A stretch of 13,256 nucleotides of DNA from Myxococcota bacterium (GTDB lineage Bacteria; Myxococcota_C; UBA6777). The translations under genes and the position numbers were made by a program. Positions 1-12,763 of the stretch are shown here, piece by piece; positions within the stretch are counted from its first letter, which is position 1; each line of letters opens with the position of its first letter. The stretch covers positions 1 to 13,256 of the forward strand of contig JAKLKB010000190.1 in assembly GCA_023150835.1 (NCBI GenBank), written 5' to 3'. The notes beneath the pieces were generated by a model. It was given only the letters and a program-made list of their open reading frames with translations, was not told the origin of the DNA and did no database searches.

Positions 1-173
1 CGGGTGGATCTCGTATTCGACGCCCTATGCTCGGGCAGACACAGGGGTCTGCCCCTACGTCCTTGCGCTCACACAACGGGCGGATCTCGTATCACATACC
101 ACACCATCAACAACCGATCCCCACCTCGCTGGTTTCTCTTGATTCGGACGCTTGTTTCTTCGATGGATCGGTC
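1..173. repeat. Dispersed hairpin repeat family R1, two adjacent copies
   Basis: No gene is seen here. Bases 1-20 look like the tail of one repeat copy, and 31-96 is a nearly complete second copy. The second copy has a hairpin with GGGCAGAC (33-40), loop ACAGGG and GTCTGCCC (47-54). This is followed by CCCTACG, a spacer, and the tail GGGCGGATCTCGTAT around 80-94. The same arrangement recurs at 2868-2927 and, degenerate, at 4645-4704. Bases 97-173 show no recognisable structure. Confidence 0.7.
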
Positions 174-2583: not shown

Positions 2584-2610
2584 CCCATCCCTTCTGTTTT
2601 TTCTTTTTTT

Positions 2611-2727
2611 GGGGCGCTGCCCCATACCCCGCAAGGGACCGATGGCCCCTTGACCCCATATCGGCGAGGCGAGCAGACGTTTTTCAAACCCACAACAGCA
2701 CCGCTTGAAACAGCGCGAACACGGCTT
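2611..2727 (+). repeat. Dispersed structured repeat family D, copy 1
   Basis: A repeat of about 117-120 bases starts 27 bases after the penicillin-binding protein stop codon. It begins with the hairpin GGGGC-GCT-GCCCC. A second hairpin follows, with arms CAAGGG and CCCTTG around ACCGATGGC, in which CC pairs with GG. A TATCGGCG stretch, TTTTTCA and CCGCTTGAA come next. By hand alignment it is ungapped and about 79% identical over 120 bases to 10111-10230. A third copy lies inverted at 4782-4897. It is not a normal intrinsic terminator, because the T-run precedes the first hairpin. Confidence 0.8.
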
Positions 2728-3261: not shown

Positions 3262-4539
3262 TTAATGCCTGAGCAACCGAAAACCGACATCGTGGCCGGC
3301 GTCCGCTGGCGCGTTCCCGCCGCGATTCGCTGACCGCAAGCGCTGCGCGTTGCCGCTCCAACTACCGCCCCGACCGCCGCGGTCCGACGCCGCTGCTACG
3401 TAGACTGGATCAACCGCTCCTAGCTCCTGATATGCTGTGTCCTTGTACCCGTCATACACCCACTCCCATACATTCCCGTGCATATCGCACAACCCCCATG
3501 CGTTCCGCCCTAAACTACACACCTCTATCGTCTTCGACCGATACTCCCCCTTCTCGCAATTCGTTTGGGGGTTGTTCCCATCGTAGTTCGCTTGTCCTGC
3601 TGAGATGCAGTCCCCTGTGTGATACGCCGTCTTTGTTCCTCCTCGCGCTGCGTATTCCCACTCCGCTTCCGTCGGCAACCTCCATCCCTTGCACTTCACA
3701 TAATCGCTTCCCTTGTTTCCCACTCCCTCGCATTGCATCTTTTCCCCCTCACCAATACACACAAAGCACTTCTCCAGTCCCCCCTTTTCCGACAACTTGT
3801 TCGCATACGCCGCTGCTTGATGCCAATTCACACCTTCTATCGGACACTTTTCTCCACAATTCTTGTGCCCAAGCTTTTTTGGCGCGCTTCCCATCACTTC
3901 TTTCCATTGCCCTTGTGTCACCTCGCTTTCCATCATCCAATACCCCCGACTTATCCGCACCGTCCGTTGTGGCCCTTCATCCTTGTCTCGATTCGGCTCA
4001 TTCGACGGACTCCCCATCACAAATTCCCCTGCCGGAATCCAACGCATCCGACCCGACGACAGTCCCTGAATCTCGCGTGGTGTCCCTGCCATCAGATGCT
4101 GCGCCAAAGCACGCAACCGAGCGATCCGAAGCCGAAGATCCGAAGAGACCTCCGATATCTGCTTCTGTAGTGCTTCACGTAACAATGTCCGTTCTACGAA
4201 CTGGGCGACGTTGTGCTTTTTCAGCCATTCCGCTTGATTTGCTGCTTCTTTCTCGATCCGCCCCTTAAGTGCGTCGTATTGCTGCTTGATCTCTGCGGCT
4301 TGCTTGTGTTGGTTGGCTTCCAACACCATCAAACGCCCTTCGATCCGACTCATCTTCTGCGTCAAACGCTCCAGCTTTTCGTTCAACTGCTTCAACAGCA
4401 ACACCAACGACACGCCTTGCCGCCCCGACCCTCCTTCTTGCGATTCCACCCGTTCCTTCGGCTTTTCTGCATACCCATCCCCAAACACCCACATCACCCC
4501 CATCATCCACGCGCACAACCACAACGCTCTTTTTCCCAT
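3262..4539 (-). CDS. Secreted coiled-coil protein with FGE-sulfatase (SUMF1-like) domain
   Basis: The 425-residue protein has a signal peptide (residues 1 to about 24), a long Lys/Glu/Gln-rich predicted coiled coil (about 44-150), and an FGE-sulfatase fold from about 164 to the end. Family motifs include IPAGEFVMGS, a variant EVTQGQW, WRLPTEAEWEYAARGG, the LCDMHGNVWEWV block and a final RGGSW...GFRLLRH. True formylglycine-generating enzymes have two catalytic Cys after RGGSW. Here those positions hold Gly396 and Leu401, so sulfatase activation is unlikely. Other Cys (NCGEKC, KCFVC, GDC, CSLGRNAWGLC) probably form structural disulfides. The start is set by AAGGAG (complement of 4549-4554) nine bases before ATG. 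It shares a strand with the Cys-rich lipoprotein gene but is separated by 588 bases of repeats, so co-transcription is doubtful. Confidence 0.9.
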   Translation of the reverse strand: MGKRALWLCAWMMGVMWVFGDGYAEKPKERVESQEGGSGRQGVSLVLLLKQLNEKLERLTQKMSRIEGRLMVLEANQHKQAAEIKQQYDALKGRIEKEAANQAEWLKKHNVAQFVERTLLREALQKQISEVSSDLRLRIARLRALAQHLMAGTPREIQGLSSGRMRWIPAGEFVMGSPSNEPNRDKDEGPQRTVRISRGYWMMESEVTQGQWKEVMGSAPKKLGHKNCGEKCPIEGVNWHQAAAYANKLSEKGGLEKCFVCIGEGEKMQCEGVGNKGSDYVKCKGWRLPTEAEWEYAARGGTKTAYHTGDCISAGQANYDGNNPQTNCEKGEYRSKTIEVCSLGRNAWGLCDMHGNVWEWVYDGYKDTAYQELGAVDPVYVAAASDRGGRGGSWSGNAQRLRSANRGGNAPADAGHDVGFRLLRH

Positions 4540-4781: not shown

Positions 4782-4897
4782 AAACCCGTGTCCGCCCCCC
4801 CCAAGCGACACCGTTGTTGTTTTGAAAAACCGCTGTTTGCCTCGCCAACACGGGGTCAAGGGGCGACAGTCCCTTGCGGGGCGTGGGGCAGCGCCCC
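4782..4897 (-). repeat. Structured repeat family D, copy 2 (inverted)
   Basis: Read on the minus strand this gives, in order, the GGGGC-GCT-GCCCC hairpin (4885-4897), CCCCGCAAGGG, a short loop region, CCCCTTGACCCC, TTGGCGAGGC, TTTTTCA, CGCTTG and a final ACACGGG. That is the same order as at 2611-2727 and 10111-10227. The CAAGGG/CCCTTG stem is intact with a one-base-shorter centre. Confidence 0.75.
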
Positions 4898-5115
4898 ATA
4901 GGCGTTAGGTTAAGGTGAAAACCTCGTAGAGTCGGTCTTGATCGCCTTTTCTTTTGTTCTCCCCCCCTCAATCCCCCCGTGAACGGGGGGAAGTTGGAAC
5001 GGGCAGCGAACAAAATCCCCGATGCTTCCGACTTTCGCTCCCTCCCCTGTTCACGGGGGAGGGCGGGGTGGGGGGCTTTCCTCCGCTTAACAAGGCGCGT
5101 ATGGGGCAGCGCCCC
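4885..5115. repeat. Composite inverted repeat of two family-B elements around a short core
   Basis: A forward element (4885-4992) starts with GGGGC-AGC-GCCCC and ends with a hairpin of CCCCCCGT, GA and ACGGGGGG (4973-4990). A reverse element (5038-5115) has a related hairpin, CCCTCCCC (5040-5047) with GGGGAGGG (5056-5063), and ends with GGGGC-AGC-GCCCC (5103-5115). On its own strand the reverse element continues CATACGCGCCTTGTTAAG, close to the copy at 12797. About 45 bases lie between the halves. With the inverted D copy to the left and R1 at 4645-4704, most of the 588-base gap at 4540-5127 is repeat. No gene is seen in it. Confidence 0.7.
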
Positions 5116-5127
5116 AAAAACACAAAA

Positions 5128-8073
5128 TTAGAGGCAGTGTTGGCCGCCTTGGGAGGAGATGGTTTGGCAGCTAAGGAAAGAGGCGGTGCATTTGAAGTCG
5201 GCGGAGGCACAGCGTTCTAAGCAAGCTCCGCCGCCGTTGTTGAGAGAGAAGCAATCCCAACCATTCGGACAGCCCGAAGGATTCGTACCCGGGCTGCAAA
5301 CAGGCGAACAGAACGAGCGGTAGGGTGTCTCAGGCCCACCAAGGCACAGATGCGCAGAAGGACAGCGGGTGGTGGCATTGTCGCAAGGGGCGTAGGCAAG
5401 GACATCTTTGATCGGATCTTCGCGACAGATGTATTGTGCGCTTGGATCGCGCTGGCAGGAGAGACCAGTTTCGCAGAGCTTGGCGTCGGCAGCGTTGCAA
5501 GCAGCGTCCTTTGCGACGGAAGTTCCGCAGTATCCCAAAGTGCCGAGCCGCAAACAGGTCTTTCCACCACCACAAGCAGGATTGGCAAGATCGCAAGGCT
5601 TGACACAACGCGCTCCGCTGGCATCAGGCGCATTCAAGCAGCGCAAACCCTCGGCGCAACGGAGGTTATCGGCTGCACGCACCAACGTCTCGCAAGCCTC
5701 GCCTTCTTGTGCTGTTCCCGCGATCACCAAGGAGGCCGCAGGTTGGCAGATATTGACCGATGCACCACCAAGAGAGATCGCTTGGCAACTCCCAAGCTCG
5801 GGAGGACAGTCTTTTCCGCCACGTTGGGGATTACAGGTCAACAGGCACGCCCCCCCTGCTGCAGTTCCTTGGCTGTTGCGCAGCCCCACACAACGCGACA
5901 AAGCCGTCGTGATCGCGGTCCATGTTTTCCCATCGTCTTGGCTGAAAAACACCGTCCCACCGTCGCCTGAGACCAAAACATTTGCCCCGCGAAACGCCAA
6001 ACCATACAACATCCGATTTTCAGGGAAGGTCGGTTTGGCCCATGTACCGGCTTCTTCTCGCAAGAAGATGCCCGAAGCCCCCGACGCATAGGATTTTCCA
6101 GATCCTACAGCTACCGCAAGGATCTCTGCCGTCGTACCCGAAGTGTCCTTTTGCCAGTTTTGCCCGTCTGTGGTCGAAAGCAAGACGCCGTTGGCTCCGC
6201 CGATCAAACCGATCTTTCCCGTTGCGACCTTGTCACGGGCCAAAGCAACGGCCCCGAGATCTTCGGTGACACCCGCAACTGTGACGGTCGTCCAGCTTTG
6301 CCCCGCATCGGTCGAACGCACGATGGTTGCGGCAGTTCCGACGATCATCCAAGCAGGAGTCGGGGCGGTGCCTTGGTCGGCTCCGACCGCAACGGCTTTC
6401 AACACCGCACCGCTTGCCAGCCCTGCGATCGAAGCAGTTTGCCATGTTTTGCCTTCATCCGTCGAACGCAAGACCGTCTGCTTGGAACCGATGACAAGAG
6501 CGGCGGTTCCATCTTCGGAAAGCGCGACATCCACAAAGTCCACTCCTGCGGGGATCGCCGAAGAGACCACTTGTTTCCACGTCACACCGCTGTCTTCGGA
6601 GCGCAAGATCACACCGCGCTCTCCCACCACCAAGACCAACTGACCGGACTTTGCAGCCGCGATCCCACGATACACCACCGCACGCGGCGAAGCCGTCCGC
6701 TCCCACGCTGCCCCCGCATTGGAAGACACAAAGATCTCTCCTAGCGCGCCCGTCGCAAGGACTTTTTGATCACTCAGCCACACAAGATCGTAAAGCGTCC
6801 CCGCAGACAAGACACCACACAGCCGCGCAGAAGTCGCTGTCCCCAATGAACAATCGGGCAAGCAGATCGCAGGGGTGGTTTGCGATATCTGCAAGGCACG
6901 ACTGCCCGTTGCACACGCCGTCTGATCATCCAAAACACTCCCACCCACAAGCGCTTTTTTACAAGCTCGCGTCGTACCCGAGACCACTTCGCAACGCTCT
7001 CCTGCTTGGCAACCTGCATCGTTGGTGCAGCGGGTCAAGCAACGCGCAGACAGCGGAAAGCTCGCATCATCGGGGATACACAGATCGTTGTTGCCTTTGC
7101 ACTGTTTTCCGCCAAGACAAGCACCGCCCGTCTCCGATGCCTTAAAGCAAAAAACACCGACGACATTCGAGCCATTAAACCCACGACAGACTTCGTCGGT
7201 CGCACAATCGGTTTGCGTACCGCATCGCTTTAAGCAACGCCCCAACACGCCCACCAGTTGGCTCGGAACGCACGTCGCCCCCGCCTCGCAAGAGTCTTCG
7301 ACCGCACAAGCCTGTCCTGTTTTTCGGGCCGTCTTGCAAGCTTTGATCGGTTGGTCTGCGGAAAGCGCTTCGCAATTTTTCCCCGTCCCACAAGCGTTTG
7401 CATCCGCACTGCAATCTTTCTGACAAACCCAGTAAGTTCCTGTCGTTCCATAACGCATACAAGTCAGCCCTTCCGCGCAAGCCTGCGTGTTGGCGCAAGA
7501 CTCGCCATCTCCGACTTGTTTGGCGCAGACAAAGATCCCCGTAGATTGGCGGGTTTTGGTGTCGTAGGTTTCCGCACACCGCGTTCCCGCTGGACAAGCC
7601 GAAGGATTGTCTTTGGAACACTCTTTGAGACAGATCCCCACAGGCTGCGGCGCACCTTCTTCTGGACTGGTTTGGCGAAGCTCCGCACACGCGAGGCCCG
7701 TTCCACAACGATCATACCACCACGCCAAACGACGCGGATCACACGTCTGGCCCTCTTTGCGGATCGCGGGTGGCTCGGCTTCAACGATCGCTTCGGGCTG
7801 CGCCTCCACCTGTGCCTCGGGCTGCGACTCTTCAGGCCCCGCTTCAGGCGTCACTTCTGCCGCAGATTCGGCCACAGGCTCCACAACCACCTCGGCAGGC
7901 TGCGACTCCTGCGGCTTTTCCGAAGGCTCCGCACACTTTCCATTTAAGCAGATCCGCCCTCCTGTGCATTGTTGATCATTTTGGCACACAGCAGGCTCAC
8001 CACACGCTTGCAGCCACAAGCCGCACAGCACCACCACACAAAACACCCCAAACCCTCGAACCCGACGCATCAT
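5128..8073 (-). CDS. Cys-rich surface lipoprotein with seven-bladed Asp-box (Ycf48-like) propeller
   Basis: This 981-residue lipoprotein has a signal peptide ending LQAC, with lipidated Cys24. A four-Cys module (Cys30, 36, 42, 47) and a Pro/Glu/Ala/Val-rich linker (about 48-107) follow. Next come four consecutive eight-Cys repeats and a shorter fifth one. A Cys-free region at about 415-728 holds seven Asp-box-like turns, including SEDSGVTW, STDEGKTW, STDAGQSW and SQDDGKTW. That is one per blade of a seven-bladed propeller, as in Ycf48/BNR proteins. More Cys repeats follow to the C-terminus. By hand count there are about 70 Cys in all, presumably disulfide-bonded. The start at 8073 follows AGGAGG by ten bases. 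It is anchored to an envelope membrane and likely exposed. The function is unknown; ligand binding, adhesion or assembly of partners are possible roles. It is divergent from the thioredoxin-fold operon. Confidence 0.93.
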   Translation of the reverse strand: MMRRVRGFGVFCVVVLCGLWLQACGEPAVCQNDQQCTGGRICLNGKCAEPSEKPQESQPAEVVVEPVAESAAEVTPEAGPEESQPEAQVEAQPEAIVEAEPPAIRKEGQTCDPRRLAWWYDRCGTGLACAELRQTSPEEGAPQPVGICLKECSKDNPSACPAGTRCAETYDTKTRQSTGIFVCAKQVGDGESCANTQACAEGLTCMRYGTTGTYWVCQKDCSADANACGTGKNCEALSADQPIKACKTARKTGQACAVEDSCEAGATCVPSQLVGVLGRCLKRCGTQTDCATDEVCRGFNGSNVVGVFCFKASETGGACLGGKQCKGNNDLCIPDDASFPLSARCLTRCTNDAGCQAGERCEVVSGTTRACKKALVGGSVLDDQTACATGSRALQISQTTPAICLPDCSLGTATSARLCGVLSAGTLYDLVWLSDQKVLATGALGEIFVSSNAGAAWERTASPRAVVYRGIAAAKSGQLVLVVGERGVILRSEDSGVTWKQVVSSAIPAGVDFVDVALSEDGTAALVIGSKQTVLRSTDEGKTWQTASIAGLASGAVLKAVAVGADQGTAPTPAWMIVGTAATIVRSTDAGQSWTTVTVAGVTEDLGAVALARDKVATGKIGLIGGANGVLLSTTDGQNWQKDTSGTTAEILAVAVGSGKSYASGASGIFLREEAGTWAKPTFPENRMLYGLAFRGANVLVSGDGGTVFFSQDDGKTWTAITTALSRCVGLRNSQGTAAGGACLLTCNPQRGGKDCPPELGSCQAISLGGASVNICQPAASLVIAGTAQEGEACETLVRAADNLRCAEGLRCLNAPDASGARCVKPCDLANPACGGGKTCLRLGTLGYCGTSVAKDAACNAADAKLCETGLSCQRDPSAQYICREDPIKDVLAYAPCDNATTRCPSAHLCLGGPETPYRSFCSPVCSPGTNPSGCPNGWDCFSLNNGGGACLERCASADFKCTASFLSCQTISSQGGQHCL

Positions 8074-8375: not shown

Positions 8376-8405
8376 TTGACAAGCTGCGCTTTTTCTTTCT
8401 ACATT
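8376..8405 (+). promoter_or_regulatory. Sigma70-like promoter of the thioredoxin/barrel operon
   Basis: A perfect -35 TTGACA (8376-8381) is followed after 18 bases by TACATT (8400-8405), four of six matches. Predicted transcription starts near 8412, giving a leader of about 113 bases before the ATG at 8525. The leader holds a small hairpin, GCGGA (8424-8428) with TCCGC (8434-8438). Confidence 0.5.
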
Positions 8406-8524: not shown

Positions 8525-9307
8525 ATGAAACGTATCTGTTTTGTCTTTTCGATCACCCTTCTTTGGGCAGCAAGCCTCGCTTGTAGCCCCGCCAACAACC
8601 CCCTCCCCTGCAACCAAGATTACAACTGCGTCTCTGGCGAAAAGTGCTACCAAGGCTTTTGCACCCCCGCCGACAAAGTCCCCGTCAGCAACACCGAGAC
8701 CACCACCGAGACCACCAACACACCCGACGGCGGAACCCCCGATAGCAGCGCCGCTGAGACCGCCCCAGAAACCACCAACAACCCCGAAACGACGCCAGAA
8801 ACCACCCCCAATCCCGTCGATTATCCCGCAGGCCCCTATGGTGCGGATGTTGGCGAAGTCAGCATCAATATCGATCTCGAAACGTGCGCAGATCCGAGCA
8901 AGCGCGTCAGCCTCAAACAATACTTCAAAGACAACGGCGTCAAAGTGCTTTACCTCAGCGTCCACACAGGCTGGTGTCCAAGCTGTAAGTCACAAGCCCA
9001 AACCCTCGAACCCATCTACCAAAAATACAAAGCCAAAGGTCTGATGGTGTGGAACATCATGACCGAAGACGCCAACGCAGGCGGCGGCAAGATCACTTCC
9101 CAATACTGCGTCGCTCACGGCGCACAATACAAATACACCTTCCCGCTTTTGCGCGACGAAGGCAGCGCCCTCATGCGCAAGTTCTTCGACCGCAACGCTG
9201 TCCCCCTCACCATGCTGATCCGCACCTCCGACATGAAGATCCTTTACAAACTCTCTGGCTCTATCCCCGATCGCATCGAAGGCTTGATCGCCACCGAACT
9301 CCAATAA
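8525..9307 (+). CDS. Thioredoxin-fold lipoprotein with CPSC motif
   Basis: This 260-residue protein has a signal peptide ending SLAC, probably lipidated at Cys20. The -3 Ser makes the lipobox slightly off consensus. A four-Cys module follows (Cys29, 35, 41, 46), then a Thr/Glu/Pro-rich linker (about 54-95). A TlpA/Redoxin-like domain carries WCPSC (Cys151, Cys154) and a likely cis-Pro in NAVPLTMLI. It probably does thiol-disulfide chemistry with substrates in the periplasm or at the outer membrane; direction (oxidase, reductase or isomerase) cannot be read from sequence. The ATG at 8525 is chosen because it begins a textbook signal peptide; the ribosome-binding site is weak. It is first gene of the operon, 56 bases before the next. 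Confidence 0.9.
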   Translation: MKRICFVFSITLLWAASLACSPANNPLPCNQDYNCVSGEKCYQGFCTPADKVPVSNTETTTETTNTPDGGTPDSSAAETAPETTNNPETTPETTPNPVDYPAGPYGADVGEVSINIDLETCADPSKRVSLKQYFKDNGVKVLYLSVHTGWCPSCKSQAQTLEPIYQKYKAKGLMVWNIMTEDANAGGGKITSQYCVAHGAQYKYTFPLLRDEGSALMRKFFDRNAVPLTMLIRTSDMKILYKLSGSIPDRIEGLIATELQ

Positions 9308-9351
9308 CCCCCGCCATCCACACCGACCCTCCGCCCCTTTCCACTACCCTC

Positions 9352-9357
9352 AAAGGA
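9352..9357 (+). promoter_or_regulatory. Ribosome-binding site AAAGGA before the TlpA-like gene
   Basis: AAAGGA lies six bases before the ATG at 9364 and supports that start. The alternative GTG at 9484 lacks a comparable site at proper spacing. Confidence 0.6.
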
Positions 9358-9363
9358 TCAATT

Positions 9364-10047
9364 ATGCCACTTCTTGACCCGATGCTTCCGCCTCAAACGA
9401 TCCCGCCCCACCTGCCCCATCGGTCGCTGCCTTTGCGACTGGACCGAGGCTTCCGTCCCCTATTATCGCAGACAGGCCGAGGGGTGCGCCACACAGCAAA
9501 GCTCGCACTCGTTTTCCTCGGACTGATGGGGTGGATCGGGTGTACAGGAACACAAACCAAGACGGATGCCAACACCCCCGCTGCAAGCAAGTTTGTGGCC
9601 CAAGAAGCGGCCCCTGCCCCGAGATTTCAACTGCGTGATCTACGCGGAGAGACCCACAGTCTCGATGCTTTGCGTGGAAAGGTCGTCTTGCTGAACTTTT
9701 GGGCGACATGGTGCGCACCTTGCCTCAAAGAACTCCCGCATTTTCAAAAGATGCACGAACAATACAAAGCCCAAGGTCTGGAGATCGTCACCGTCAGCGT
9801 CGATGAAGCCCAAACAGTCGCCCAAGTCGGACCCTTGATCAACCGCTACGGCTACAGCTTCCGCGTGCTGCTCGATACCGAAGGCCGCGTTGTCACACAA
9901 TACAATCCCAACCGACACAATCCTTTTTCCGCCCTGATCGACCACAAAGGCAACCTGCGCATGACCCACCAAGGCTACACCCCGGGCGACGAGATCGAGA
10001 TGGAAAAAAAAGTCAAGCTCCTGCTCCAAGAAGCCGCAGCCAAGTAA
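9364..10047 (+). CDS. TlpA/ResA-family thiol-disulfide oxidoreductase lipoprotein (CAPC)
   Basis: This 227-residue protein has a classic TlpA domain: APRFQLRDLRGE, VVLLNFWATWCAPC (Cys117, Cys120), LEIVTVSVDE, a cis-Pro candidate in NPFSALID, and a final helix. Family members usually reduce disulfides in the periplasm, for example in cytochrome c maturation, but no cytochrome gene is present here. A lipobox-like GWIGC gives lipidated Cys60. The ATG at 9364 has a good AAAGGA site but leaves about 40 residues of unusual, Pro/Arg/Leu-rich sequence before the hydrophobic segment. A GTG at 9484 would give an ideal 20-residue lipoprotein signal peptide. The start is therefore uncertain, while the domain call is firm. 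Confidence 0.9.
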   Translation: MPLLDPMLPPQTIPPHLPHRSLPLRLDRGFRPLLSQTGRGVRHTAKLALVFLGLMGWIGCTGTQTKTDANTPAASKFVAQEAAPAPRFQLRDLRGETHSLDALRGKVVLLNFWATWCAPCLKELPHFQKMHEQYKAQGLEIVTVSVDEAQTVAQVGPLINRYGYSFRVLLDTEGRVVTQYNPNRHNPFSALIDHKGNLRMTHQGYTPGDEIEMEKKVKLLLQEAAAK

Positions 10048-11868
10048 ATGCGCACGATTCATCTTCCTTTCTTGGATGGACTTTACGGGGCGCGGATAGG
10101 TGGGCTTCATGGGGCGCGGCCCCAAACCCCGCAAGGGAACTTCGTCCCCTTGACCCCCTATCGGCGGAACGAACACAGGTTTTTCACACCAACGTCTGCT
10201 CCGCTTGAAGCAGCACGATCACGGCTATTTCCACGACGCTGCTTTGGGGCCGTTTGGTCTGTGCTGTGGGTGTGTGTTTGCGTGTGGGGATGGCTGACAA
10301 GCGCGTGGGCCTTCAACTTTCCGATCAAAAAGCCCCGTATCTCGATGGATATCAACCTATCCACGATCTTTGAGTACCACACGTATAACCCTGCTTCTCA
10401 GCGCCCTGCCCACGCCTTTAACTACTTCGATCTCCAAAACCGCCTTGATCTCAAGGTTTCCGTCGATGACGTCAGTTTTGGTGGCCGCCTTGATACCTTC
10501 AACTTCTTTGGCGATGCGGCCCCTTGCCCTGCCAAATTCCCCAACTGCGCGGCGGCTTACATCCCCGAGAAACTCTTCCTCAACGTCCGTGTCGGTCGCT
10601 TCGAGTTCACCGCAGGCGATTATTATCTCACCGTCGGAAGAGGGATCGCCCTCGCCATCCGAAAAGTCGATACCTTCGGCATTGACACCACCTTACGCGG
10701 CGCACGCGCCACTTACCAACACGACGACTTCCAAGCCACCGTTGCAGGCGGCTTTACCAACACCAACAACTTTGAACCCGTTCAAGAGATCATCCTCGAC
10801 GATCCCAACGACTTCATCTTTGCCGCAGATGTCGAACAACGTTTTCTCAAGCTGTTTCGGCTGGCCGCTCACTACGTTTTTTCACGCATCGATCAGCGCG
10901 TCGTAGAGGCCAACGGCACCGAAAAAACCCTGATCCGCACCACCTCTCACATCGGCGGTGGGCGCATCACGTTTCCCCGTATCTTCGACAAGATGGATGT
11001 TTACTTTGAAGGGAACTTTCAGATCGAAGACAACAACGGGCTTTATCGCGACCCGGGTTATGCCCTGTATTTCAACTACAACGGCTATTTTTTCCCCTTC
11101 ACTGTCCAGCTTGAAGCCCAGTGGTACTCGCGTTATCGTCTACAAAGCACTTTTACCCAACGCTACAGCACCGTATCAACGCCTCCTGTGCTGTACCTCA
11201 ATCAGCCAAGTATGGAGCGCCCCGATCTCGATACCCAAGGCGACAACGCCAACTCCAAAGGCTTGCGCTTGCGCATCGATTACACCTTCCTCAACCGCGC
11301 TGCTGTCGTGCATCTCAATTACCTGTTCCGCTACGGATTTACCGACCGCGCCGATGCAGAGCAGCTCATGATCCACCATGCCTACGCTGGCTTCGAATAT
11401 CACGGCGATATCGTGCATCTCAATCTCAGCGGTGGATGGCGGCACATCACAGGCTTCGAATACTGGCGACTGATCCACGCAGACGCCGATATCTCGATCC
11501 GCTTTGCACAAAAACACGCCTTCGATATCGTCGGTCGCTACTGGAACAACGAACGCGGCGAATCCTTTTTGCCCGGCATCCCCATCGAACAGCAGATGCG
11601 CGCCTTCCATATCGTCGATGCACAGGTCGGCTACACCTTCTCTGGCATCGGAAGCCTCGCCTTCTTGTTTTCTTACACCAACGAAAGCAGCGACCTCAGC
11701 GTGCGGCAGCTCTACTATGCCGTCGAAGCCAAGATCCTGCTTTCGCGCTTTGGCTTTCTCAAACTTTTTTATGGCAACGTGCGTGGCGGACTGCGCTGCG
11801 TTTCAGGCGTCTGCCGCATCTTCCCGCCCTTTGAGGGCTTCCGCACCGAGTTGCTTTTCCGTATATAA
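10048..11868 (+). CDS. Outer-membrane beta-barrel protein (possibly DUF6029-like), start uncertain
   Basis: The open frame encodes 606 residues. From about residue 89 (after the cleavage-like SAWA/FNFP) it is rich in alternating polar/aromatic strands typical of outer-membrane barrels, ending ELLFRI. The GDYYLTVGRGIAL...GIDTTLRGA region recalls DUF6029-type barrels; this is memory-based and tentative. Two close Cys pairs occur, CPAKFPNC and CVSGVC, the latter near the C-terminus. The first 55-60 codons overlap a family-D repeat (10111-10227), so the ATG at 10048, directly after the upstream TAA, may be wrong. However, no other ATG lies between it and the signal peptide in this frame. No clear ribosome-binding site is seen, and translational coupling to the TlpA-like gene is possible. 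Likely function: pore or platform for the neighbouring lipoproteins. Confidence 0.8.
   Translation: MRTIHLPFLDGLYGARIGGLHGARPQTPQGNFVPLTPYRRNEHRFFTPTSAPLEAARSRLFPRRCFGAVWSVLWVCVCVWGWLTSAWAFNFPIKKPRISMDINLSTIFEYHTYNPASQRPAHAFNYFDLQNRLDLKVSVDDVSFGGRLDTFNFFGDAAPCPAKFPNCAAAYIPEKLFLNVRVGRFEFTAGDYYLTVGRGIALAIRKVDTFGIDTTLRGARATYQHDDFQATVAGGFTNTNNFEPVQEIILDDPNDFIFAADVEQRFLKLFRLAAHYVFSRIDQRVVEANGTEKTLIRTTSHIGGGRITFPRIFDKMDVYFEGNFQIEDNNGLYRDPGYALYFNYNGYFFPFTVQLEAQWYSRYRLQSTFTQRYSTVSTPPVLYLNQPSMERPDLDTQGDNANSKGLRLRIDYTFLNRAAVVHLNYLFRYGFTDRADAEQLMIHHAYAGFEYHGDIVHLNLSGGWRHITGFEYWRLIHADADISIRFAQKHAFDIVGRYWNNERGESFLPGIPIEQQMRAFHIVDAQVGYTFSGIGSLAFLFSYTNESSDLSVRQLYYAVEAKILLSRFGFLKLFYGNVRGGLRCVSGVCRIFPPFEGFRTELLFRI
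10111..10227 (+). repeat. Structured repeat family D, copy 3, inside the barrel reading frame
   Basis: GGGGC-GCG-GCCCC, then CCCCGCAAGGG and CCCCTTGACCCC, TATCGGCG, TTTTTCA and CCGCTTGAA line up base for base with 2611-2727. In the second hairpin the centre reads A-AC-TTC-GT-C instead of A-CC-GAT-GG-C. The inner pairs changed but still pair. Confidence 0.8.
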
Positions 11869-11902
11869 GCAATCTGTTGGATGGACTTGAGTGAATCTTG
11901 TT

Positions 11903-11907
11903 GGAGG
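11903..11907 (+). promoter_or_regulatory. Ribosome-binding site GGAGG of the last lipoprotein
   Basis: GGAGG lies seven bases before the ATG at 11915. It selects this start over the GTG at 11891, which would place a non-hydrophobic octapeptide before the signal peptide. Confidence 0.75.
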
Positions 11908-11914
11908 TTTTGAT

Positions 11915-12763
11915 ATGCAACGACGGCTCGCCTATTTGGGCCTATTTCTCGGCTTGTTTTTTTTCTACCTCGCTGCTTGCAACGGTGACACCCGCTGTTT
12001 CTTTGATTACAACTGCCCTCAAGGGCAGTATTGCGTCGGTGGATCCTGCCAAGACACCCCTCCCCCCGGTGTCGAAGTCCCCAAAGAAGCCACGCCAGAA
12101 GCGGGTCCCGAGCCGATGCCCGAGCCGATGCCCGAACCCGCCCCCGAGCCGACGCCCGAACCCACTCCCGAAGGCCCTCAAAGCTGCCAAGCCCACAGCG
12201 ATTGCACCCGCGAACCCAACAAGACCTGCTACGACAAACTCTGTGTTCCCGGATACATCGAGTTCAGCTTCACCGCAGGCCACCCTATCATCAACCTCAA
12301 AGCCGCTGCCACGGCCTGCACCTCCAACACCAACTGCCAGCCATGGCAATTCTGCGAAACCCGCGCAAGCCCCGTCCGATGCTACCCCAAACTCGATAAC
12401 AACGCCCAAGCCAAGGGCCGCATCGGTTCCGATACCTACTTCCTCGATGGCTACGCCACTTCCACCGTCCAATCCATTGACGGCAAAAACTACCTCGTCA
12501 CCTACGTGACAGGCGATGTTTCCGAAAAATTACAGCGCATCCTTGAGATCCACATCCCTCTTGACAACGTGCAGATCGGCCAATTCGAGATCAAACCTGA
12601 TGGCGCAAAAGCCTTTCTCTTCAATGATTACATCGAATTCTCCCCCACCCGCCGCGTCCTCACCGCCGAAGCCATCCGTGGTGATATCCAACTCACTCTC
12701 GCTGGAAAAACCCTCGGAAACACCATCGCTGGTTCCGCCAACCTGATCTTTCAAGCCCGCTAA
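11915..12763 (+). CDS. Cys-module lipoprotein with Pro-Glu linker and beta-rich C-terminal domain
   Basis: This 282-residue protein has a consensus lipobox LAAC (Cys22) and a four-Cys module (Cys28, 34, 40, 45) with the same 5-5-4 spacing as its two neighbours. A linker of repeated Pro-Glu-x-Pro units (about 60-88) follows, probably spanning the cell-surface layer. Two more four-Cys stretches with 5-7-4 and 5-5-8 spacing come next. The last 120 residues are Cys-free and strand-rich, with unknown function. It starts 46 bases after the barrel gene and is probably the last gene of the operon, so it may be an accessory or substrate of the barrel. No enzyme motif is seen. Confidence 0.88.
   Translation: MQRRLAYLGLFLGLFFFYLAACNGDTRCFFDYNCPQGQYCVGGSCQDTPPPGVEVPKEATPEAGPEPMPEPMPEPAPEPTPEPTPEGPQSCQAHSDCTREPNKTCYDKLCVPGYIEFSFTAGHPIINLKAAATACTSNTNCQPWQFCETRASPVRCYPKLDNNAQAKGRIGSDTYFLDGYATSTVQSIDGKNYLVTYVTGDVSEKLQRILEIHIPLDNVQIGQFEIKPDGAKAFLFNDYIEFSPTRRVLTAEAIRGDIQLTLAGKTLGNTIAGSANLIFQAR

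Follow-up and report, generated by a model that had tools for sequence, protein, structure and literature searches.

A TlpA-type thioredoxin gene paired with a DUF6029 outer-membrane barrel gene in many bacterial phyla, with a possible role in thiol-disulfide exchange

INTRODUCTION

DsbD, CcdA and ScsB are helical inner-membrane proteins that pass thiol redox equivalents across the membrane via a cysteine pair. We know of no thiol-disulfide relay across the outer membrane, and the outer-membrane counterpart proposed below is drawn by analogy with these proteins. The thioredoxin-fold proteins TlpA, ResA and CcmG share their fold and WCxPC active site with the product of one gene, tlpA, of the locus described here. 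ResA and CcmG are linked to cytochrome c maturation, whereas the TlpA-like protein of this locus is linked to an outer-membrane barrel.

Two outer-membrane systems also invite comparison. LptD is matured by the general Dsb enzymes, whereas the thioredoxin described here is dedicated to its barrel and can be fused to it. The likeness to LptD is that of a large outer-membrane barrel whose cysteines matter, activation of LptD being controlled by two native disulfides (PMC10567701). In the MtrCAB porin-cytochrome conduit, electrons cross the outer membrane through a barrel of similar size, and the MtrB protein of S. oneidensis has an N-terminal CxxC of which the first Cys is needed (PMC12175506). 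Our locus differs in that no cytochrome was found at it and the Cys pair of the barrel is C-terminal.

By Pfam score, this barrel is a member of the DUF6029 family (PF19494). Some Wzi-type barrels near OPX genes show HHpred similarity to DUF6029 (PMC9603273). In a literature search that most subscription journals lay outside, a single paper was found to name DUF6029, and its pertinent passages do not describe the pairing with TlpA, the Cys hairpin or the fusion; nothing relevant emerged that connects Omp28 to TlpA or deals with thiol relays at the surface. Here we report this undescribed pair of TlpA and DUF6029 barrel genes, which occurs in many bacterial phyla beyond the window, the whole stretch of 13,256 nucleotides that was analyzed and one whole contig of a 7.56-Mb genome.

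RESULTS

Gene content of the operon

The preliminary description proposed a same-strand operon of four genes with short gaps. Its coordinates proved right (Table 1), with gaps of 56, 0 and 46 bp in order; the tlpA stop codon abuts the barrel ATG, and a single TAA separates both genes. The two thioredoxin-fold proteins with CPSC and CAPC sites were also confirmed, since Pfam finds AhpC-TSA/Redoxin in both; the lipoboxes of both are imperfect (SLAC in trxA and WIGC in tlpA). The trxA product scores 39 bits to AhpC-TSA, also matches Redoxin and is distantly TlpA-like (hhalign 99.6% to TlpA). Its homologue family in Polyangia has an invariant WCxxC and cis-Pro in the alignment.

The tlpA product scores 89.5 bits to AhpC-TSA (PF00578) against a Pfam cut-off of 26, and its nearest solved structures are those of ResA. 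It falls below the NCBIfam models for ResA (114.3 versus a cut-off of 170) and DsbE/CcmG (48.9 versus 123.15), and also misses the cut-off of the rhizobial TlpA model. Neither these ResA and DsbE scores nor the tested neighbours support a cytochrome c maturation cluster: in relatives, where such a cluster would have spoken against the original proposal, no cytochrome-maturation gene was seen among the flanking proteins around the pair that were tested by Pfam, a sample of the neighbours.

Table 1. Features of the operon and its surroundings in the window
Feature	Position	Strand	Basis
Divergent Cys-rich lipoprotein, BNR/Ycf48-like repeats	5128..8073	-	Pfam, Cys count
Promoter-like TTGACA-18-TACATT	8376..8405	+	10/12 consensus match
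trxA, thioredoxin-fold lipoprotein	8525..9307	+	N-terminal Cys module, GWCPSC active site
tlpA, TlpA/ResA-like thioredoxin, WCAPC, probable lipoprotein	9364..10047	+	AhpC-TSA
DUF6029 (PF19494) outer-membrane beta-barrel, ~24 strands	10048..11868	+	Pfam and AlphaFold prediction
153-bp interspersed repeat, in frame near 5' end of barrel gene	10099..10251	+	Lacking in sister genome G001
Second conserved barrel segment GDYYLTVGRGIALAIRKVDTFGIDTTLRG	10615..10701	+	Conserved alignment columns; predicted outer-side or lumenal loop
C-terminal hairpin RGGLRCVSGVCRIFPPFEG with Cys pair 584/589	11782..11838	+	Cys invariant in alignments
Lipoprotein with Cys modules, fourth gene of operon	11915..12763	+	LAAC lipobox

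The divergent lipoprotein, credited earlier with about 70 cysteines, has 75 in total and 71 counted from the lipobox on. The 'one good promoter' ahead of the operon stood up only in part: such matches are not above chance (three in the window against 3.9 expected), but the bases of this one are kept in the sister species G001. The genome of the window encodes DsbD_TM proteins. No PADLOC match was obtained, and a phage-defence system was set aside. Farther off on the reverse strand, window 3262-4539 encodes a secreted protein that resembles formylglycine-generating enzyme, has an N-terminal coiled coil and scores weakly to GldK/PorK (type IX secretion, T9SS).

Conservation and repeats within the phylum

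The phylum of the window is small, with five members in the genome collection including the sister genome G001. The order of divergent Cys-rich lipoprotein, trxA, tlpA, barrel and Cys-module lipoprotein is common to G001, G003 and G004, except that the G004 locus is without trxA, and the locus proteins are ~33-56% identical outside the genus. The Cys-rich lipoprotein is conserved as the divergent neighbour in three genera, and the fourth-gene lipoprotein lies downstream of the barrel in G001, G003 and G004. This shared order indicates that both genes are part of the locus as it exists in this phylum.

The in-frame repeat of 153 bp inflates the first ~65 residues of the window barrel, and the residues that it encodes match 150 scored places in the same genome. 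Interspersed copies of roughly 120-150 bp are also present at window 2610-2726 and 4816-4899, with 575 candidate copies in this genome and 500 in the sister genome; the family's three remaining genomes have none. The copy within the barrel gene recalls the Rickettsia palindromic elements. A second repeat family, of the GGGCAGCCACAGGGGGCTGCCCCTACA type (L031:3729-3855), is found at window 21-95 and 2856-2930; in the sister genome a copy lies between trxA and tlpA, a place where the window has none. Both families thus differ in position between the sister species within the operon, with copies present in one and lacking in the other. At the end of the contig (12981-13254) a 137-bp repeat forms a tandem pair that is 97% identical.

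Linkage of TlpA and barrel genes across phyla

Three queries were used to search for homologues: the barrel sequence, PF19494 and a degenerate DNA pattern for the Cys hairpin. Barrel homologues were found in Myxococcota, including several Sorangium cellulosum strains, in CSSED10-310, in LCP-89/Tariuqbacter-type bacteria and in Calditrichaeota and Ignavibacteria records, with one copy in most barrel-bearing genomes. DUF6029 is present in 56 of the 198 species sampled in one phylum, that to which an Ignavibacteria genome belongs and which we took as Bacteroidota, in 32/39 and 7/7 in two smaller phyla and in 4/5 in the window's own. Barrels of the Myxococcota type are homologous over their full length to those in the phylum of genome G011, which had been found with PF19494 (hhalign 100%, E 1.4e-77, 454 columns).

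Among 92 distinct barrel loci, 91 have upstream sequence, and in 85 of these a thioredoxin-fold gene adjoins the barrel or is fused with it: 78 on the same strand, five divergently on the other strand and two fused in frame. Rarity of such genes beside barrel homologues, which would have spoken against the original proposal, was thus not what was seen. By chance, adjacency would be expected at about 1% per gene, judging from 20 AhpC-TSA stretches in the genome of the window. The species sampled are related, so the loci are not independent, but the linkage holds separately in at least six lineages. Six of the 92 loci are without a thioredoxin-fold gene within 400 bp and one is without upstream sequence. 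In L075, tlpA lies three genes upstream of the barrel, and in L214 beyond an Omp28 gene; an Omp28 gene is found upstream in L211 and on the other side of the barrel in L194 and L195.

The spacing between linked genes is often zero or an overlap of 1-11 bp (0 to -11 bp), and the CxxC is retained in 83/83 linked TlpAs. In a tree with paralogues the linked TlpAs cluster weakly (2 changes versus 4.8 when shuffled), with only five unlinked controls placed and two very long branches. G(Y/F)xPGDE was rejected as a marker of these TlpAs, being missing from many linked ones.

In G010 and G115, which belong to one genus, TlpA and barrel form one open frame that encodes, in order, a signal peptide, the TlpA domain, about ten linker residues and the barrel. 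An even strand number normally leaves the N-terminus of an outer-membrane protein in the periplasm. With the N-terminus of the barrel expected there, the fusion would put TlpA at the periplasmic mouth.

The invariant cysteine pair and the predicted barrel

The claim of an outer-membrane barrel holds: the protein scores 52.9 bits to PF19494, above the curated Pfam cut-off of 27, and is predicted to form a barrel. AlphaFold modeled the mature protein from a 31-row alignment with a pLDDT of 83.7 and a pTM of 0.82, and the strand count of ~24 was read off the DSSP string of this model. Two close Cys pairs had been noticed; both are present (160/167 and 584/589), but only the C-terminal pair is conserved beyond the window's phylum. 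It lies in a hairpin between the last two strands with the motif G-(L/I/V)-x-C-x-x-G-x-C-R, and both cysteines are invariant in three barrel alignments (A1, A3 and A4). The motif is found in 90/92 barrels, the exceptions being a copy cut by a contig end and a frameshifted copy; 26 of the loci were found by the DNA-pattern scan and carry it by construction, while the other 66 are independent of the pattern. Matches of the scan come from genomes having the barrel. Outside the window's phylum and Myxococcota, most mature barrels lack any cysteine besides the two of the hairpin.

Long loops alternate with short turns in the model, as in known outer-membrane proteins, and from this alternation the Cys hairpin would lie on the outer side or be folded into the lumen, as would the conserved GRGIAL...TTLRG segment. 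In whole-length structure alignment the best matches are the ushers FimD and PapC (in the better rows, Z ~16-17 and rmsd ~4-5 across 366-387 residues), followed by the Mtr-complex barrel and an LptD model; AlgE is among the partial matches. The usher sequence family is absent from the barrel's Pfam matches, although size and shape match ushers, and the LptD family is absent from its Pfam and NCBIfam matches, the likeness being structural only (Z 15.1). A fold search for a specific relative returned general barrel similarity in which ushers, LptD and the Mtr barrel cover most or all of the protein and none stands out, and sequence search found no solved relative. On these models, the resemblance to ushers, LptD and the Mtr barrel is one of size class and not of kinship.

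When the window's TlpA and barrel were joined by reading through the TAA, the predicted chain had a pLDDT of 79.0 and a pTM of 0.80 over 775 residues; for a TlpA left unplaced we roughly estimate a pTM of ~0.64. Taken from the pTM alone, this is suggestive only, and TlpA is probably placed confidently in the model.

Further thioredoxin-fold partners and neighbours

Many loci encode a further thioredoxin-fold protein. A trxA-type protein is carried by loci of the Polyangia type, and it occupies the usual place of tlpA in L109 and L110. In Bacteroidota, Omp28 (PF11551) adjoins the barrel in 21 of 30 loci, 13 of them confirmed by Pfam; its alignment shows an invariant CxxC with an invariant Pro after it, and hhalign matches the N-terminal part of Omp28 to TlpA (95.6%). 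Omp28 was not found in the window, where trxA may fill its place. Some barrel-adjacent Omp28 proteins bear T9SS sorting tails and should therefore be extracellular. An Omp28-related, T9SS-dependent surface protein of Paraprevotella clara (00502) recruits trypsin (PMC9477747). Not every barrel locus was found to have a trxA or Omp28 gene.

In the phylum of G011 a PEGA-AhpC/TSA lipoprotein is encoded upstream. Small T9SS-tailed proteins with a close Cys pair (for example CNDSGCYPP or CFGINCFSP) are also encoded upstream in this phylum and in some Bacteroidota; such a small secreted protein lies just upstream of TlpA in L081, L082, L085, L086, L089, L186, L212, L213 and L215. Two members were tested, and the N-terminal part of neither matched a Pfam family. 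The gene directly upstream of TlpA in part of the G011 phylum encodes a subtilisin-family (S8) protease with a T9SS-type tail (L076:2724-5852, L042:4064-7201), tested by Pfam for L076 and with similar lengths in L078, L079 and L091. The selenocysteine synthase gene selA comes next after the barrel in the two genomes of this phylum tested (L042:9190-10557, L076:8171-9595), and genes of SelA-like length follow it in several more.

DISCUSSION

The TlpA and the barrel are very probably functional partners. What the pair does is less certain, and the reading that we tentatively favour is a cytochrome-free thiol-disulfide relay from the periplasm through the barrel to surface thioredoxin-fold proteins, a counterpart of DsbD extending from Myxococcota to Bacteroidota. 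DsbD would be the electron source for TlpA, which would act from the periplasm on the single invariant Cys pair of the barrel. Redox equivalents would then pass to an outer thioredoxin-fold protein, trxA here and Omp28 in Bacteroidota, and this protein would act on disulfides of surface proteins, which in the window may be the Cys-rich lipoproteins. The barrel system would thus play at the outer membrane, without cytochromes, the role that DsbD and CcdA play at the inner one.

A relay is the simplest reading of three components taken together: a periplasmic thioredoxin as constant partner, an invariant Cys pair standing alone in the barrel and a further, putatively outer, thioredoxin-fold protein. 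It is favoured by the linkage (85/91 against about 1% by chance), the fusion, the tight spacing and the CxxC retained in all linked TlpAs, and further by Omp28 at 21/30 Bacteroidota loci, by a barrel of usher, LptD and Mtr size and by the DsbD_TM proteins. Against it we count the loci that lack trxA or Omp28. Its weak point is the hairpin: on the strand and loop pattern, an outer-side or lumenal position means that TlpA could get to it only through the barrel or prior to insertion.

That position fits better with the main alternative, in which TlpA is a dedicated maturation factor that forms, isomerizes or keeps reduced the barrel Cys pair during assembly, an outer-side hairpin being most accessible before insertion; the barrel would then do another job, with no electron relay. 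We consider this possible but somewhat more doubtful. An invariant Cys pair that comes with a dedicated thioredoxin speaks for it, as does the precedent of LptD activation under the control of two native disulfides (PMC10567701). However, the barrel often has these two cysteines alone, which leaves nothing to isomerize, and neither a permanent 1:1 fusion nor extra thioredoxin-fold partners would be needed for a single assembly step.

Three other readings, protein export, metal loading and polysaccharide export, have less in their favour than relay or maturation. As an exporter of Cys-bearing surface proteins, the barrel would pass cargo kept reduced by TlpA, and the outer thioredoxin-fold protein would re-form the disulfides. 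This is unlikely: the barrel is in the size class of the protein-conducting ushers, and its neighbours include the Cys-rich lipoproteins within the phylum of the window and, in other groups, small T9SS-tailed proteins with a Cys pair, but the T9SS-tailed ones already own an exit route, no cargo family is common to all phyla, and the invariant Cys pair of the barrel is left unexplained. TlpA-type proteins reduce the CuA site of cytochrome oxidase for metal binding, and a lone invariant CxxGxC with a dedicated reductase-like thioredoxin could likewise be read as a site that TlpA reduces in a metal-dependent channel. We regard this as very improbable, given that none of the tested neighbours was a metal transporter or a metallochaperone and that no further conserved metal ligand pattern was noticed. 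Least likely of all is a polysaccharide exporter with a secondary thioredoxin link, to which the resemblance that HHpred finds between DUF6029 and certain Wzi-type barrels encoded near OPX genes (PMC9603273) and the partial match to AlgE would point, since the constant partner is a thioredoxin and no OPX, Wzc or glycosyltransferase gene was found among the flanking proteins sampled by Pfam.

Of the surface-directed thiol-redox system in the preliminary description, a thiol-redox function centred on the barrel is therefore well supported, given the linkage and the absence of a cytochrome c cluster among the neighbours tested. Its proposed purpose, the folding or repair of Cys-rich lipoproteins, is not carried over in general, as such lipoproteins are linked to the locus only in the window's own phylum, and in other phyla this core is accompanied by Omp28 or by small proteins with T9SS tails.

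DUF6029 is common yet without an assigned function, and its ties to a thioredoxin, to a Cys pair and to Omp28 provide a sharp, testable hypothesis for the family. Even if only the maturation reading were true, TlpA would still be a helper of a new kind, one dedicated to an outer-membrane barrel.
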